Positions 2,463-48,553 of a stretch of 64,000 nucleotides of DNA are shown here, piece after piece; position 1 is the first letter of the stretch, and every line of letters starts with the position of its first letter. This DNA is from Pontibacter flavimaris (GTDB lineage: Bacteria > Bacteroidota > Bacteroidia > Cytophagales > Hymenobacteraceae). The stretch lies in NCBI RefSeq assembly GCF_001907195.1, contig NZ_LVWA01000004.1, positions 682,001 to 746,000 of the forward strand, written 5' to 3'. The position numbers and the translations under genes were made by a program. The notes below the pieces were generated by a model that was given only the letters and a program-made list of their open reading frames with translations, was not told the DNA's origin and made no database searches.

Positions 2463-2981
2463 ATGAGTACGTTTGATTTTTTCCTGGCTATCCCGATTGC
2501 CTATGGCGCCTTCATGGGCTTCCGGAAGGGGCTGCTGCTGGAACTGGTGTCGTTGGTGGCGCTGGTGCTGGCCATACTTGGCGGCCTGAAACTGCTGGAC
2601 ACGGCACTGCCCTTAATGGCCGGCTTTATTGGCGACGCGCATGGACTGTTGCCCTATGTTACCTTTCTGGTAGTGTTCGTAGGCATTATCCTGCTCATCC
2701 ACCTGAGCGGCCTGCTGCTCAAGAAGGTGATCGACTTCACGCCCTTTGGCCTGTTTGATAACGTGCTGGGAAGTATACTGGGCGCCCTAAAGTGGTGCCT
2801 GGCCCTGAGCCTGCTGCTCTACGTATCGGACATGGCCGGCATCAGTGTGTCTAAGGATACGGCCGACGCCTCGATGGTATACCCGGTGGTGCTCAAGACC
2901 ACGCCCTACGCCCTCGACATTCTCAGCTACGTGCTCCCCTTCATCAAAGCGCTCATCACCTCCCTCCGGCAACACTTTTAG
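2463..2981 (+). CDS. CvpA family inner membrane protein
   Basis: A 172-residue membrane protein with four hydrophobic segments (about residues 5-20, 26-48, 60-85 and 100-125), which fits the CvpA (colicin V production) family. The N-terminal FFLAIPIAYGAFMGFRKGLL and the second-segment pattern match CvpA-like proteins, whose role is linked to membrane homeostasis but not settled. A periplasmic or loop region follows the last segment, with a final helix at the C-terminus. It is followed directly by a palindromic repeat element, with only two bases between the stop codon and the start of the left arm, and then by pabA. Family assignment rests on topology and N-terminal similarity only. Confidence 0.75.
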   Translation: MSTFDFFLAIPIAYGAFMGFRKGLLLELVSLVALVLAILGGLKLLDTALPLMAGFIGDAHGLLPYVTFLVVFVGIILLIHLSGLLLKKVIDFTPFGLFDNVLGSILGALKWCLALSLLLYVSDMAGISVSKDTADASMVYPVVLKTTPYALDILSYVLPFIKALITSLRQHF

Positions 2982-2983
2982 GA

Positions 2984-3160
2984 GTTAGAAAGTTAAAAAG
3001 TTAGAAGGTTAGAAAGTTAGAAAGTGTGGGAACATACTTTCATGGCTTGGGTAAGGCACATCAAGCTGCTCGATGAAGTATGAGAAATCTAGGGAAGCAT
3101 TCATTAACGAATGCTTCACACTTTAACTTTCTAACCTTCTAACTTCCAAACTTTCTAACT
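2984..3160. repeat. Palindromic element, GTTAGAAAGTT-arm family (copy 1)
   Basis: The whole cvpA-pabA gap is one imperfect inverted repeat. The left arm (2984-3027) is made of iterated GTTAGAAAGTT/GTTAGAAGG units. The right arm (3117-3160) is its reverse complement, including the shared unit AACTTTCTAACCTTCTAACTT. The core holds a small hairpin, GAAGCATTC/GAATGCTTC, at 3093-3116. The same arms occur around a different core at 29649-29889, and single-arm remnants are seen near 7221 and 52097. No ORF is present. The element ends 4 bp before the pabA ATG, so its hairpin would lie in the pabA leader. No target-site duplication is evident. Confidence 0.8.
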
Positions 3161-3164
3161 TCCC

Positions 3165-3737
3165 ATGCTTTTGCTGCTCGATAACTTCGACTCGTTTACC
3201 TACAACCTGGTGGACTACTTCGGTAGGCTGGGGGTAGAGGTGGAGGTGGTGCGCAACGATGTGCCGCTGCGCGAGCTGCAGAAGCTGCCCATAGAGGCGG
3301 TGGTGCTCTCGCCGGGACCGGGTGTGCCGCAAAGTGCCGGAAGTATGATGGAGGTGATCAGCTACTACCATAACCGCGTGCCAATGCTGGGCATTTGCCT
3401 GGGGCACCAGGCGCTGGGTGAGTTTTTCGGGGCGAAGCTGGAGAAGGGGCTGCGGCCGATGCACGGCAAGATATCGGAGATCATCTGTGAGGAAGACCCG
3501 CTTTTCGAGGGCTTGCCAGCCACCATGCCGGTGGTGCGCTACCACTCGCTGGTGCTGCGCCAAACACCTGAAAGTATAAAACCGCTGGCCCGCACGCAGG
3601 AGGGCGAGCTGATGGCGTTCCGGCACCGGGAGCTGCCGCTTTACGCACTGCAGTTCCACCCGGAGGCGGCACTCACCACCCACGGCCTGCACCTGCTCCG
3701 GAACTGGCTTTTACTTGCTAAGATTCCGGGCTCCTGA
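3165..3737 (+). CDS. pabA: Anthranilate/4-amino-4-deoxychorismate synthase component II (glutamine amidotransferase)
   Basis: Class I glutamine amidotransferase of 190 residues that supplies ammonia to chorismate-utilising partners for folate (PabB) or tryptophan (TrpE). It shows LLLDNFDSFTYNLVDYFGRL at the N-terminus, SPGPGVP at 49-55, the nucleophile Cys78 in GICLGHQALG and the His165/Glu167 pair in FHPEA (usually FHPES). The catalytic triad is complete. No component I, trp or fol gene is adjacent, so whether it serves folate, tryptophan or both cannot be told here; trpG is the alternative name. The start is the ATG 4 bp after the palindromic element. Confidence 0.9.
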   Translation: MLLLLDNFDSFTYNLVDYFGRLGVEVEVVRNDVPLRELQKLPIEAVVLSPGPGVPQSAGSMMEVISYYHNRVPMLGICLGHQALGEFFGAKLEKGLRPMHGKISEIICEEDPLFEGLPATMPVVRYHSLVLRQTPESIKPLARTQEGELMAFRHRELPLYALQFHPEAALTTHGLHLLRNWLLLAKIPGS

Positions 3738-28450: not shown

Positions 28451-28505
28451 TTATACTTTAGCAGAGATCATCTTCCAATCTCCACATCTTCAAATCTCCA
28501 AATCG

Positions 28506-29569: not shown

Positions 29570-29648
29570 CAAGTATAAACAGATCTTGCTGATACTTAAT
29601 TTCTATTCCCTGATAGAGGGTAAAGCAATAAGTAGGGGAAATGTTCTA

Positions 29649-29889
29649 GAGTTAGAAAGTTGGGAAGTTAGAAGGTTAGAAAGTGAAGCTATGTTTTAAC
29701 CTCTCTCGCTCGCGTCCCGCGGGTGCGCGCTATAGGGCGGCCTCTGGCCGTTTTAAGTATAAGTATAAGTATAAGTATAAGTATAAGTATAAGTGGCGGG
29801 ACGCCACCGGATAGCACACACTCGCGGGACGCGAGCGAGAGCTGAGGTACATTTAACTTTCTAACCTTCTAACTTCCCAACTTTCTAAC
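29649..29889. repeat. Palindromic element, GTTAGAAAGTT-arm family (copy 2), 241 bp
   Basis: The outer arms 29649-29687 (GTTAGAAAGTTGGGAAGTTA onward) and 29852-29889 are reverse complements of each other. An inner pair, CTCTCGCTCGCGTCCCGCG near 29703 and its reverse complement near 29825-29843, continues the pairing. The tip holds an array of AAGTAT hexamers. There is no ORF. The arms match those of copy 1 at 2984-3160 but the core is different, as if the arms were the mobile or conserved part. Confidence 0.85.
29755..29794 (+). repeat. Tandem AAGTAT hexamer array
   Basis: Six complete AAGTAT units plus AAGT, directly head to tail, at the tip of the palindromic element. The unit is the core of the heptamer AAGTATA that is over-represented across the whole window. 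It may be a slippage product of one motif copy or a multiple binding site. Confidence 0.95.
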
Positions 29890-29934
29890 TATTCCTAAAT
29901 CCGCACATTTTCACCATGTTTCGTAAAAAAGAAG

Positions 29935-42415: not shown

Positions 42416-44818
42416 ATGAAAAGAATAATCAAGAAAGTAGCCGTACTTGGCTCGGGGGTGATGGGCTCGCGTATTGCCTGCCACTTCGCCAACATCGGGG
42501 TGCAGGTGCTGCTGCTCGACATTGTACCCAAAGAGCTGACGCCGGACGAGGAAAAGAAGGGCCTGACGCTGGAAAGCAAAGCCGTGCGCAACCGCATCGT
42601 GAACGGCTCGCTGGATGCGGCCATCAAATCAAATCCGTCGCCGCTCTACCGCAAGTCCGATGCGCGCCTGATCCAGACCGGTAACTTCGAAGACAACATG
42701 AAGGACATCGCCACCGCCGACTGGACCATTGAAGTGGTGGTGGAGAACCTGAAGATAAAGAAACTGGTGTACGACCAGGTGGAGCAGCACCGCAAGCCGG
42801 GCACGCTCATCACCTCCAACACCTCGGGCATTCCGATCCACCTGATGCTGGAGGGCCGCTCCGACGATTTTAGGAAGCACTTTTGCGGCACGCACTTCTT
42901 TAACCCGCCACGCTACCTGAAGCTTCTCGAAATTATTCCTACGCCAGAAACCGATCCGGCTGTGGTGGATTTCCTGATGCACTACGGCGATTTATACTTG
43001 GGCAAGACTACCGTGCTAGCAAAAGACACGCCGGCCTTTATCGCCAACCGCGTAGGCATCTACGCCATCATGCAGGGCCTGCAGGTAATGAACAAACTGG
43101 GCCTGAATGTGGACGAGGTGGACCGTATCTCCGGTCCGATCATCGGCCGCCCGAAGTCAGCCACGTTCAGAACGCTGGATGTGGTTGGTCTGGATACGCT
43201 GGCTAATGTAGCGAACGGGCTTTACCAGACGGGTGATAAGGATGAGTCGCGGGAGCTGTTCCAGTTGCCGGGCTACCTGCAGAAAATGGTCGAGAACAAA
43301 TGGCTGGGTGATAAGACCGGCCAGGGCTTCTACAAAAAGACAAAAGACGCGAGCGGCAAAACCGAGATCCTGACGCTGGACCTGAACACGCTGGAATATG
43401 GCCCGAAGCAACGCGCCAAGTTCCAGAGCCTGGAAGTGCTCAAGCCTATCGAAGACCTGAAGAAGCGCGTGAAGGCTTTCTCCAAGCAAACAGATAAGGC
43501 CGCACAATTCTTTAATGAGTCGCTTTACGGTCTGTTCCAGTATGTGAGCAACCGCATCCCCGAGATCTCAGACGAGCTTTACAGAATAGACGATGCCATG
43601 CGTGCCGGCTTTGGCTGGGAGCTTGGTCCGTTTGAGTACTGGGATGGCATTGGCGCCCGTGAAGGCGTGCAGCGCATGATCGAAGCCGGATATGAGCCTG
43701 CCCGTTGGGTAGAGGAGATGCTGGAGCATGGCAAAGAGTCCTTTTACGTCGTGGAGAACGGCCAGCGCCGCTACTACGACATCCAGAGCAAAGAATACAA
43801 AACCATCCCGGGTGCCGAGAACTTCATTATACTGGATAACCTGCGTGGCAACAACGTCATCTGGAAAAACACCGGCGCCACTATAACGGACCTGGGCGAT
43901 GGCATCCTGAACGTGGAGTTCCACACCAAGATGAACACCATGGGCGGCGATGTGATTCAAGCCCTGAACAAAGGGATAGAATTGGCCGAGAAAGATTTCC
44001 GCGGGATGGTTGTGGGTAACCAGGGAGCCAATTTCTCTGCCGGTGCCAACGTGGGCCTAATCTACATGTATGCGCTGGACCAGGATTACGATGAGCTGAA
44101 CATGATCATCCGCCAGTTCCAGAACACGATGATGCGCATGCGCTACTCGGCTATACCGGTAGTAGGTGCGCCGCATGGTTTAACGCTGGGCGGCGGCTGC
44201 GAGCTGAACCTGCATGTGGACCACATCCAGGCAGCTGCCGAGACTTACATGGGCCTGGTGGAGTTTGGCGTGGGCCTGATCCCAGGCGGTGGCGGTACCA
44301 AGGAGATGACGCTGCGCGCGGCTGATATGTATGCTGATGGCGACATAGAGCTGAACGACCTGAAGAACGTGTTTCTGAACATCGGTATGGCAAAGGTTTC
44401 TACTTCTGCCAAAGAAGCGATCGATTTAGGCTATATGCGTGCAAGCGATGGCATTTCCATCAACAGCAACCGCCAGATTGCCGATGCCAAAGCGCAGGCT
44501 ATACTTTTAGCGGAGGCTGGGTACACCAAGCCGGTGCAGCGCACGAACATTAAAGTGCAGGGCCGCAGTGCGCTGGGCATGTTCCTGACGGGTGCCAACG
44601 CCATGATGACCGGCCGCTACATGTCGGAGCATGACCTGAAGATCTCGCAGAAGTTGGCCTATGTGATGTGCGGTGGCGATCTGTCGGCCCCAACGGAGGT
44701 AAGCGAGCAGTACCTGCTGGACCTGGAGCGTGAGGCCTTCCTGTCGCTGACAGGCGAGCGTAAAACGTTGGAGCGTATCCAAAGCATCCTGACCACAGGC
44801 AAGCCGCTGCGGAATTAA
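42416..44818 (+). CDS. fadB: 3-hydroxyacyl-CoA dehydrogenase / enoyl-CoA hydratase fusion
   Basis: Carries out the second and third steps of beta-oxidation. The 800-residue protein begins with an NAD-binding Rossmann domain (VLGSGVMGSRIACHFANIG, residues 10-28), followed by 3HCDH domains (TKDTPAFIANRVG-type segment AKDTPAFIANRVGIYAIMQG near 200) and a C-terminal enoyl-CoA hydratase domain (about 510-720: GANFSAGANVGLI, APHGLTLGGGCEL, GLIPGGGGTKEM). The order dehydrogenase then hydratase is the reverse of E. coli FadB but usual for this Bacteroidota type. Downstream, an inserted repeat element separates it from the thiolase gene. Confidence 0.93.
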   Translation: MKRIIKKVAVLGSGVMGSRIACHFANIGVQVLLLDIVPKELTPDEEKKGLTLESKAVRNRIVNGSLDAAIKSNPSPLYRKSDARLIQTGNFEDNMKDIATADWTIEVVVENLKIKKLVYDQVEQHRKPGTLITSNTSGIPIHLMLEGRSDDFRKHFCGTHFFNPPRYLKLLEIIPTPETDPAVVDFLMHYGDLYLGKTTVLAKDTPAFIANRVGIYAIMQGLQVMNKLGLNVDEVDRISGPIIGRPKSATFRTLDVVGLDTLANVANGLYQTGDKDESRELFQLPGYLQKMVENKWLGDKTGQGFYKKTKDASGKTEILTLDLNTLEYGPKQRAKFQSLEVLKPIEDLKKRVKAFSKQTDKAAQFFNESLYGLFQYVSNRIPEISDELYRIDDAMRAGFGWELGPFEYWDGIGAREGVQRMIEAGYEPARWVEEMLEHGKESFYVVENGQRRYYDIQSKEYKTIPGAENFIILDNLRGNNVIWKNTGATITDLGDGILNVEFHTKMNTMGGDVIQALNKGIELAEKDFRGMVVGNQGANFSAGANVGLIYMYALDQDYDELNMIIRQFQNTMMRMRYSAIPVVGAPHGLTLGGGCELNLHVDHIQAAAETYMGLVEFGVGLIPGGGGTKEMTLRAADMYADGDIELNDLKNVFLNIGMAKVSTSAKEAIDLGYMRASDGISINSNRQIADAKAQAILLAEAGYTKPVQRTNIKVQGRSALGMFLTGANAMMTGRYMSEHDLKISQKLAYVMCGGDLSAPTEVSEQYLLDLEREAFLSLTGERKTLERIQSILTTGKPLRN

Positions 44819-44876
44819 TGTTTTAGAAAGTATGAGTGGGAGCTAAATGACCGCCATTCATACTTTACTTGTTCTT

Positions 44877-45089
44877 TGTCATCCTGAAAGAATCTTGGTT
44901 GAAGGGTAAGCCTCAGTATGCTCTTTCGGATTTGCAATCCGAAAGTATAATAGCCGCGGATTTGTAATCCGCAATAGGTTAAGCAGTAGCTATTAACAGG
45001 CAGGCGGATTACAAATCCGCAGTTACCCGAGTTCCGGATTGCAAATCCGGAACAGCAACCATAAATAAGCAAGATCCTGAGGAATGACA
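44877..45089. repeat. Nested palindromic element with TGTCATCCTG ends and TTTGCAA hairpins
   Basis: Outer ends TGTCATCCTGAAAGAATCTT and (reverse complement of) TGTCATTCCTCAGGATCTT enclose four small hairpins. Their arms vary but the loop is always TGC/TGT or its complement: CTTTCGGATT-TGC (44923-44945), GCGGATT-TGT (44956-44972), GCGGATT-ACA (45004-45020) and TTCCGGATT-GCA (45032-45052). The middle two are inverted copies of each other. It lies between fadB and fadA, filling most of the 322-bp gap, with no ORF. It looks like one repeat inserted in another. Confidence 0.8.
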
Positions 45090-45140
45090 GAAGAAAATTG
45101 AAAGTATAGCTGATAGTATAAACTATAAAAGAGCATCAAA

Positions 45141-46319
45141 ATGAACAATGCCTATATCGTAGCCGGATTTCGTAGCGCCGTTGGGAAAGCCGGCCGTGGC
45201 GGATTCCGGTTCACCAGACCTGATGACCTGGCCGCTGACGTCATCAAACATGTAATGGCCTCTGTGCCTGCCCTTGACCCGGAGCGGGTGGACGACCTGA
45301 TCGTGGGGAACGCGGTTCCGGAAGCCGAGCAGGGCCTGCAGATCGGACGTATGATTTCGTTACTGGCGCTGCCGATGTCGGTTTCTGGTATGACGGTAAA
45401 CCGCTACTGCGGTTCTGGCCTGGAAACCATCGCCATAGCCGCAAACCGTATTTCGGCCGGTATGGCTGATTGCATCGTGGCAGGTGGCACGGAGTCTATG
45501 TCGCTGGTGCCTACGGCTGGCTGGAAAACCGTGCCTAATTACAAGATCGCCAAAAACAACCCCGACTGGTACCTGAGCATGGGCTTAACGGCTGAGGCGG
45601 TGGCTGCCGATTACAATGTTTCACGTGAAGACCAGGATGCGTTTGCCTTTAAATCGCACCAGCGGGCCATCAATGCCATCCAGAACGGTTATTTCAAAGA
45701 CCAGATCGTGCCGGTAACGGTAGAGGAGACGTACCTGGACGAGAACGGCAAAAAGAAGACCCGCACGTATGTGGTAGATACCGATGAAGGCCCGCGTGCT
45801 GACACCTCTCTGGAGGCCCTGGCCCGCCTGAAGCCGGTGTTTGCGGCAGGCGGAACGGTAACGGCCGGTAACTCTTCTCAGACTTCGGATGGTGCTGCCT
45901 TTGTGATCGTGATGAGTGAGCGCATGGTGAAAGAACTGGACCTGGAGCCGATTGCGCGCCTGGTGAGTTACGGCACCGGTGGCGTAGACCCGCGCGTCAT
46001 GGGTATGGGCCCGATCGCGGCCGTTCCGAAGGCGTTGAAACAGGCAGGGATGACGCTGAACGACATCGACCTGATCGAGATGAACGAAGCTTTTGCAGCC
46101 CAGTCTATCGCCGTGATGCGCCACCTCGACTTCGACCCGGATAAGCTGAACATCAACGGCGGCGCCATTGCGCTCGGTCACCCGCTGGGCTGCTCCGGCG
46201 CCAAGCTAAGCGTGCAGCTCTTCAGCGACCTGCGCCGCACCGGCGGCAAGTATGGCATGGTGACTGCCTGCGTAGGCGGTGGACAGGGTGTAGCCGGCGT
46301 GTTCGAATTACTGAAATAG
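45141..46319 (+). CDS. fadA: Acetyl-CoA acyltransferase (3-ketoacyl-CoA thiolase)
   Basis: Last step of the beta-oxidation cycle: thiolytic cleavage of 3-ketoacyl-CoA. The 392-residue thiolase has the acyl-accepting Cys90 (NRYCGSGLETIAIA), GHP with His347 (GGAIALGHPLGCSGA) and the proton-exchanging Cys377 (VTACVGGGQG). Partner of the fadB-type enzyme upstream. Its TAG stop is followed at once by the inverted arm of the S23 element. Confidence 0.95.
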   Translation: MNNAYIVAGFRSAVGKAGRGGFRFTRPDDLAADVIKHVMASVPALDPERVDDLIVGNAVPEAEQGLQIGRMISLLALPMSVSGMTVNRYCGSGLETIAIAANRISAGMADCIVAGGTESMSLVPTAGWKTVPNYKIAKNNPDWYLSMGLTAEAVAADYNVSREDQDAFAFKSHQRAINAIQNGYFKDQIVPVTVEETYLDENGKKKTRTYVVDTDEGPRADTSLEALARLKPVFAAGGTVTAGNSSQTSDGAAFVIVMSERMVKELDLEPIARLVSYGTGGVDPRVMGMGPIAAVPKALKQAGMTLNDIDLIEMNEAFAAQSIAVMRHLDFDPDKLNINGGAIALGHPLGCSGAKLSVQLFSDLRRTGGKYGMVTACVGGGQGVAGVFELLK

Positions 46320-46740
46320 CGTATCACGTATCACGACACACGAATCACGACTTCTGTTTATGCACAATTTTAAGGAATTGAGAGTATGGAAAGAAGCGAT
46401 TGAACTTGCTAAGTCTGTCTATATAATAACAGCAAATTTTCCGGCAGATGAAAAGTACGGCTTGAAGTCCCAAGTCAATCGTGCAGCCGTGTCAATTCCT
46501 TCAAACATAGCGGAGGGAGCTGGTAGAGGTTCTAATAAAGAGTTTGCACAGTTTCTGAAAATAGCCTTAGGATCGGCTTTTGAAGTTGAAACTCAGATGA
46601 TCTTAGCGGAAGCTTTTGGGTTTGTAACGGAAGCCGACAACGAGAAGCTAATGCAGCAGCTATCAGGTGTGCAAAAGATGCTGAATGGTCTAATCAACAA
46701 ATTTTAAAGTCGTGTGTCTTGATACGTGATACATGATACG
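46320..46740 (+). mobile_element. Small hairpin-bounded element carrying an S23/four-helix-bundle gene
   Basis: A 421-bp unit bounded by inverted arms of iterated CGTATCACGTATCACG (left, 46320-46351) and its near reverse complement (right, 46709-46740; first 16 bases match 15/16, and ACACACGA is shared). The only content is one intact ORF on the operon strand. It sits exactly between the fadA stop and the acyl-CoA dehydrogenase leader, without visible target duplication. The inside is visibly richer in AT than its flanks. It resembles the intervening sequences that carry S23 genes in 23S rRNA, but here it lies between protein genes. Mobility is inferred. Confidence 0.7.
46360..46707 (+). CDS. 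Four-helix-bundle protein, S23/IVS-Avd family
   Basis: A 115-residue protein of the S23 (23S rRNA intervening sequence) family, TIGR02436 type. Diagnostic features are FKELRVWKEAIELAKSVYII, YGLKSQVNRAAVSIPSNIAE with GAGRGSNKEFAQFL, and ALGSAFEVETQMILAEAFGF. The fold is a four-helix bundle that forms pentamers and is related to Avd, the accessory protein of diversity-generating retroelements. It probably binds nucleic acid. No reverse transcriptase or template repeat is nearby. The gene is intact, AT-richer than its neighbours and enclosed by inverted arms, so it was probably acquired. Confidence 0.9.
   Translation: MHNFKELRVWKEAIELAKSVYIITANFPADEKYGLKSQVNRAAVSIPSNIAEGAGRGSNKEFAQFLKIALGSAFEVETQMILAEAFGFVTEADNEKLMQQLSGVQKMLNGLINKF

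Positions 46741-46762: not shown

Positions 46763-48553
<1,791 letters not shown>

Follow-up and report, generated by a model that had tools for sequence, protein, structure and literature searches.

Since the 1990s, annotation has treated genes of the S23/IVP family as rRNA-intervening or ribosomal curiosities that have no function. The 23S rRNA intervening sequence (IVS) of Coxiella burnetii is an element of ~430 nt which carries the S23p ORF and ~28-bp inverted repeats, occurs sporadically, and is regarded as selfish (PMC4990558). An S23 gene inside a hairpin element is, in other words, already known from rRNA, and a survey from 2013 located an S23 gene between cmr3 and cmr2 in Pleurocapsa, again in a gene gap (PMC3936711). 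The element considered here resembles the rRNA IVS in that an S23 ORF lies inside a terminal inverted-repeat stem. However, the IVS resides in rRNA and fragments it, whereas this element is placed between the protein genes fadA and fadE, its arms are tandem 7-8-nt repeats that vary by element, and S23-less copies are dispersed.

Three further systems invite comparison. REPIN-RAYT systems (PMC3116915) likewise feature many dispersed inverted-repeat hairpins, a gene bordered by the same repeats, and a repeat type that tracks the gene, but they rely on a Y1 tyrosine transposase and GC-rich REPs, while the S23 system has a four-helix bundle and AT-rich heptamer or octamer arrays. REPIN-like high-copy inverted doublets were found for the GTTAGAAA, GAATGAGT, and GGTAGAGA families described below, not for the GTATCAC arms of the element between fadA and fadE. 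Avd, from diversity-generating retroelements, shares with S23 a homologous four-helix-bundle fold and a pentameric state; unlike Avd, S23 has neither a reverse transcriptase nor a variable/template repeat beside it and falls under the cut-off of the Avd model. The TAACTGA heptamer direct repeats which MacGregor reported in Beggiatoaceae, Cyanobacteria, and Bacteroidetes (PMC4679880) are, like the S23 arms, intergenic heptamer arrays near start codons, with a patchy distribution over distant phyla and an unknown means of spread. In contrast to the S23 arms, they were reported as direct repeats, and S23 is unmentioned in that report; the two kinds of array may be related. In the open-licence full-text literature we found no account of free-standing S23 genes with arms on either side, although subscription papers could hold one, and S23 hairpin elements in gene gaps represent a widespread and apparently undescribed kind of tiny mobile DNA.

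According to our analysis, the element found in the window (the whole stretch of 64,000 nucleotides of Pontibacter flavimaris DNA analysed here) probably belongs to a family of mobile hairpin elements of very small size. The features of the locus are as follows.

45141..46319, + strand: fadA, thiolase gene, upstream flank (ORF list and profile matches)
46317..46319, + strand: fadA stop codon TAG, read from the sequence, where the element starts
46320..46353, + strand: left arm of tandem 7-nt units, namely GTATCAC twice, GACACAC, GAATCAC, and a final GACTT
46360..46707, + strand: S23 / 23S-rRNA-intervening-sequence-protein gene, 115 aa (PF05635, TIGR02436, 2GSC-like fold)
46708..46740, + strand: right arm, 7-nt units as reverse complement, pairing with the left arm
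46763..48553, + strand: fadE, acyl-CoA dehydrogenase (FadE, NF058590), downstream flank, with a start judged by comparison with relatives to be probably at 46763

An earlier note on this DNA had described an S23 gene between inverted arms, set between the fadA stop and the leader of the next gene in operon orientation, and the sequence, the HMM matches, and the pairing of the arms confirm this arrangement. All three genes run in the same orientation, and the reading frame 46360-46707 has no internal stops. Its product matches PF05635 (23S_rRNA_IVP) with 137.9 bits against a cut-off of 33.8, and TIGR02436 with 129.6 bits, above the curated cut-off. Structure prediction returned a four-helix bundle (pLDDT 95.6), to which 2GSC is the closest solved fold (TM 0.92-0.94); the crystals of 2GSC and of a second relative, 2RLD, contain five chains. 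Avd structures are remote fold matches of the model (4DWL, TM 0.77-0.83, E about 0.06; 4DWL and the 8UB-series together, TM 0.73-0.83), and the Avd equivalog NF033474 scored 24.1 bits, under its cut-off of 80, so that the label "Avd-like" in the earlier note is apt for the fold and not for the sequence family.

The positions 46321-46343 and 46710-46732 are complementary at 96% over 23 nt and form part of two arms of ~33 nt. The arms had been described as 32-bp inverted copies of an iterated 8-mer; they are indeed inverted, but the repeat unit is 7 nt (GTATCAC/GAATCAC/GACACAC), and over the full 32 nt the arms pair imperfectly, with an offset of one unit. When 4000 segments of 350 nt were drawn at random from the genome, none reached the score of these arms, 21.5 (99.9% level, 18.5). 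Upstream of fadA, at 44815-45140, the window also contains the palindromes CGGATTTGCAATCCG and GCGGATTACAAATCCGC, which are of the same kind as those beside RAYT-like Y1 genes of this genome (L369) and constitute a separate REP family.

Inverted arms are also present around other S23 genes, whose flanks the earlier note had proposed to inspect. The 4.62-Mb genome encodes seven S23 genes (the copy in the window and six more), and all seven are enclosed by inverted arms of short tandem units, each copy with a different unit; the arms at L004 and L005 are weak, inside the top 1-2% of random segments. Among 76 S23 loci from 50 Pontibacter species, the left arm compared with the reverse-complemented right arm scored 20.0 for the element's own pair and 9.4 between different sites, with 68 elements above the 95th percentile of between-site arm pairs and 66 above 99% of random 350-nt genome segments. 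A second sample of 80 loci from other genera (Bacteroidota, Geobacter, Syntrophus, Ignavibacteria, and an Atribacterota bin) gave 20.5 for own arms against 10.6 for crossed ones, and 55 of the 80 lay above the 95th percentile of crossed pairs. Identity at lag 7 was 0.43-0.48 in the arms and 0.23-0.25 in the background, and the best lag was 7 in 55/76 and 8 in 19/76 of the Pontibacter loci and 7 in 63/80 of the others. Arm sequences differ among elements, whereas the left and right arm of any one element match. Within an arm family, arms from the same element (16.9) were no more alike than arms from different species (16.5), and we saw no excess likeness of the kind expected from ongoing homogenisation. 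The anatomy of these elements is therefore that of an S23 gene between inverted arms of tandem 7- or 8-nt repeats, and they are placed in gene gaps, from the stop codon of one gene to the leader of the next. At 60 of the 76 Pontibacter loci both neighbours run, by crude calls, in the direction of S23, and the flanks read at the 76 loci differ from rRNA.

The gap upstream of fadE shows how such elements come and go among relatives. Each of the 50 Pontibacter genomes has one fadE match, and the gap before it holds an S23 element in 25 of the 50 species, while the others have a plain short spacer or other repeats; the empty sites sought by the earlier note do exist. G044, G028, G045, and G007 retain an apparent left-arm remnant without the S23 gene. 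The fadA stop codon is TAG in 19/25 filled sites and TAA in 19/24 unfilled ones (Fisher p=1.7e-4), which indicates that the element replaces the stop codon of fadA. Four arm families (GTATCAC, GACAAAG, GACACAA, and TTAGATN) correspond to four S23 clades in a protein-only tree, but 1670 nt of fadA and fadE reject every one of these families as a clade (p_AU 0.0036, 7.8e-35, 4e-4, and 6e-7) and demand 13 changes of arm family. Identity of the element is hardly related to that of its flanks (rho 0.11-0.14), in comparison with a rho of 0.61 between fadA and fadE. In the pair G003 and G025, the element is 90.6% identical and the flanks 82-83%, the rise in identity beginning at the fadA stop and stopping at the fadE start; this profile requires that the element moved horizontally, either by itself or with very little flanking DNA. 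S23 elements thus travel horizontally into the same gap, and the claim that gene and arms form a mobile unit of their own is well supported by empty and scarred sites and by a history decoupled from the flanking genes. Neither of the refuting observations named in the earlier note, armless flanks at other S23 genes or conservation at one site with no empty sites, was borne out. Against movement of the element alone it may be said that ordinary homologous recombination in the flanking fadA and fadE could also bring about transfer into the same gap. No case was seen in which strains of the same species differ by an insertion. No target-site duplication was recognised at the empty sites compared, where the gaps have diverged too far for a firm comparison. 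Between the arms there is S23 only.

Sites without S23 in the fadA-fadE gap often contain other palindromic repeats (GCTGGCGCGAG... and GTCCCCCTTTGAAGGGGG...), some of them beside a left-arm remnant, as seen in G004, G015, G028, and G044 (L080, L102, L100, and L081) and in G007, G013, and G045 (L115, L095, and L105). These other palindromes indicate that the gap is a general insertion hotspot. A second gap, upstream of a small monooxygenase gene, was compared in 30 species and is occupied by an S23 element (G000, G011, and G019), by an S23-less hairpin, or by neither. The S23-less hairpins there belong to five arm families and usually extend from stop codon to ATG, and the close relatives G011 and G025 (flanks 93-95%) have different arm families at this site. 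The locus L073 was taken for an insertion into a CusA-type transporter gene; this candidate was rejected since the gene is split there in all Pontibacter homologues read, which makes the site another gene gap. Across 30 Pontibacter genomes (L207-L236), the CusA/RND-type transporter is encoded by two ORFs with the same split point in all homologues read, and the gap contains S23 elements, arm remnants, a palindromic element GTCATTTCGAGC...GTCGAGATGAC, or a short spacer.

Dispersal of the arms was measured by pattern counts and in a 464-kb sample (10% of the genome). The scan of this sample detected S23-less hairpins of the same design, two of which are within the window.

2977..3165, + strand: S23-less hairpin with 8-nt GTTAGAAA arms at about 2983-3027 and 3117-3160 and an 85-nt loop
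29647..29893, + strand: S23-less hairpin with 8-nt GTTAGAAA arms at 29650-29687 and 29856-29890

The first spans the distance from an ORF stop codon to the ATG of a trpG-like gene. Over the whole genome, the arm motif AAGTTAGAAGGTTAGAAAGTTA has 86 forward and 87 reverse matches, 173 in all, against 0 for the control. About a third of the loci read for this motif form inverted pairs, 141-255 nt long; a single one, of 460 nt, encloses S23. S23-less derivatives with the same arms are therefore dispersed through the genome, and the "minimal free-standing unit" of the earlier note, correct as to a mobile unit, understated a large family with many gene-less derivatives. GTATCAC, the 7-nt family of the element at fadA, did not occur as a dispersed repeat within the scanned 10% of the genome, and a search for S23 remnants in the loops of S23-less hairpins gave no significant match. 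Inside the loop of the hairpin at 29647-29893 lie a further palindrome, which is GC-rich, and an array of the hexamer AAGTAT, as though one repeat had entered another. The window also has, at 28469-28505, a lone partnerless octamer arm of TTTGAAGA type (CATCTTCCAATCTCCACATCTTCAAATCTCCAAATCG), the arm family of S23 site s04.

The arms might instead have been born in place, by replication slippage or template switching in AT-rich gaps, with S23 alleles moving only by homologous recombination of the flanks. Drift of the unit at one site from GAATGAGT to GAATAACT, a hybrid arm in G041, arm mismatches without strand preference, and the target duplication that was not found all fit such an origin. 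We deem it very unlikely, however, since copies of one and the same arm number about a hundred per genome and occur in both orientations, against 0 matches for the control, which needs copying; the transfer of the element alone in G003, with flanks unshared, and the related S23 genes with the same arms found at three different gene pairs count against it as well.

The relation between the resident gene and the dispersed arms speaks for a family of mobile hairpins served by S23. The S23 subfamily with 8-nt arms was gathered across Pontibacter, and 51 members were read, a matching S23 being one with an arm within 3 mismatches of the pattern. The median number of GTTAGAAA copies was 95 in genomes with a matching S23 and 15 in the others (p=5e-4), and that of GAATGAGT copies was 66 and 14 (p=3e-5), both p-values being optimistic because genomes from a single genus do not count as independent observations. 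The crossed comparisons of GTTAGAAA and GAATGAGT were nonsignificant (p 0.16 and 0.93). For GGTAGAGA, the count was 107 in G033, which has an S23 gene with GGTAGAGA arms, and did not exceed 22 elsewhere. There are exceptions, namely G008, G029, G021, and G044, which have many dispersed copies and for which a matching S23 was not found. Overall, the sequence of the dispersed arms follows the arms of the resident S23 gene. The suggestion that the protein contributes to its own spread is upheld in part, by this covariation and by the low dN/dS given below.

Another idea is that the hairpins are ordinary REPIN/MITE-like repeats moved by a RAYT Y1 transposase or by an insertion sequence, S23 being a trapped passenger. 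Y1_Tnp/RAYT-like genes occur in 43 of the 50 genomes, with 7 in the P. flavimaris genome itself, and their number is weakly correlated with that of GTTAGAAA copies (rho 0.35, p=0.013) but not with that of GAATGAGT copies (rho 0.09). The RAYT genes read in G000, G009, G011, G015, G019, and G025 have no adjoining heptamer arms, and most RAYT genes read are bordered by different, GC-rich palindromes; the REPIN-RAYT and S23 systems coexist in Pontibacter with different repeats. Moreover, the repeats persist in genomes without Y1_Tnp (53 + 57 copies in G030), and the enclosure of S23 by such arms across several phyla is too consistent for a passenger, so we consider this account quite unlikely.

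The selection acting on the gene could be read differently, with the element as a resident host module, vertically inherited, that regulates its operon or processes RNA (RNase III cutting, mRNA stability) and whose arms change while their RNA pairing is kept by selection. S23 orthologues are under strong purifying selection (median dN/dS 0.065, about 0.07), the same sites are common to the genus and lie inside operons, and RNase III cuts the stems of rRNA IVSs (PMC4990558), all of which such a module would explain. Yet half of the species lack the element at fadA/fadE, some with remnants, its phylogeny conflicts with that of the flanks, and about a hundred S23-less copies lie at unrelated genes. 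Selection on a sense-RNA stem further predicts that G-U mismatches exceed A-C mismatches in the arms; the counts were 175 and 184 (p=0.67), and under strict alignment 57/44 and 33/36. The sense strand thus has no G-U excess, which argues against the proposal in the earlier note that the RNA hairpin is the selected feature, and a host module of this kind appears unlikely. Some S23 copies have internal stops, and their existence together with purifying selection fits a gene that is important to the element and dispensable for the host.

The resemblance to Avd raises one more route, in which S23 would partner a reverse transcriptase supplied in trans that copies the excised hairpin RNA to new sites. 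Besides the fold similarity, the short transfer tracts confined to the element are as in retrohoming. RVT_1 is, however, missing in 26/50 genomes, including the S23-rich G038 (9 S23 genes), G035 (7), G041 (7), and G011 (6) and the recent recipient G003, the Avd sequence model remains far under its cut-off, and no reverse transcriptase is found among the ORFs located at 42-52 kb. This route, to which the earlier note had alluded, is unnecessary and in our judgement highly improbable. Contig C1 of G037 encodes one 444-aa reverse transcriptase at least 7 times in identical form, and another reverse transcriptase lies close by, indicative of a recent burst; G037 has only weak matches to the S23 with 8-nt arms.

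In the explanation we favour, that of a family of mobile hairpins, S23 would recognise the arms and act as the mobiliser, the substrate being folded DNA and not RNA and the chemistry being carried out by host enzymes; we know of no catalytic residues in S23. The protein would bind the arms in a folded state, as single-stranded DNA or as a cruciform, and there may be one bundle per 7-nt unit, a guess derived from the five-chain assembly of the solved relatives and from arms of four to five units. Together with host replication or repair enzymes, it would promote the copying of hairpins bounded by such arms into gene gaps where the DNA is single-stranded or broken; the element would be tolerated since it sits between genes and comes with a stop codon and a leader of its own. 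Copies that lack S23 would be mobilised in trans, and S23-bearing rRNA IVSs would be a special case that landed in an rRNA loop. A broader proposition, which we regard as possible but more doubtful than not, is that S23/IVP proteins are dedicated mobilisers of minimal elements that cross phyla, a nonenzymatic pentamer cooperating with host enzymes in a transposition without transposase, of which the rRNA IVS is an offshoot. If true, the widespread and uncharacterised family PF05635 would gain a testable role, the origin of rRNA IVSs would be answered, and the AT-rich heptamer and octamer repeats that fill Bacteroidota gene gaps would be explained. S23 as mobiliser would also make this a new kind of system, mobile without a recognisable transposase, recombinase, endonuclease, or reverse transcriptase of its own, and a second way, beside REPIN-RAYT, for one resident gene to sustain a hairpin population.

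Very long inverted arrays, up to ~95 nt, surround S23 at L162, L172, and L174, in MAGs or genomes of Clostridia (a bin which may be mis-assigned), Ignavibacteriae, and Geobacter; they are possibly young insertions.
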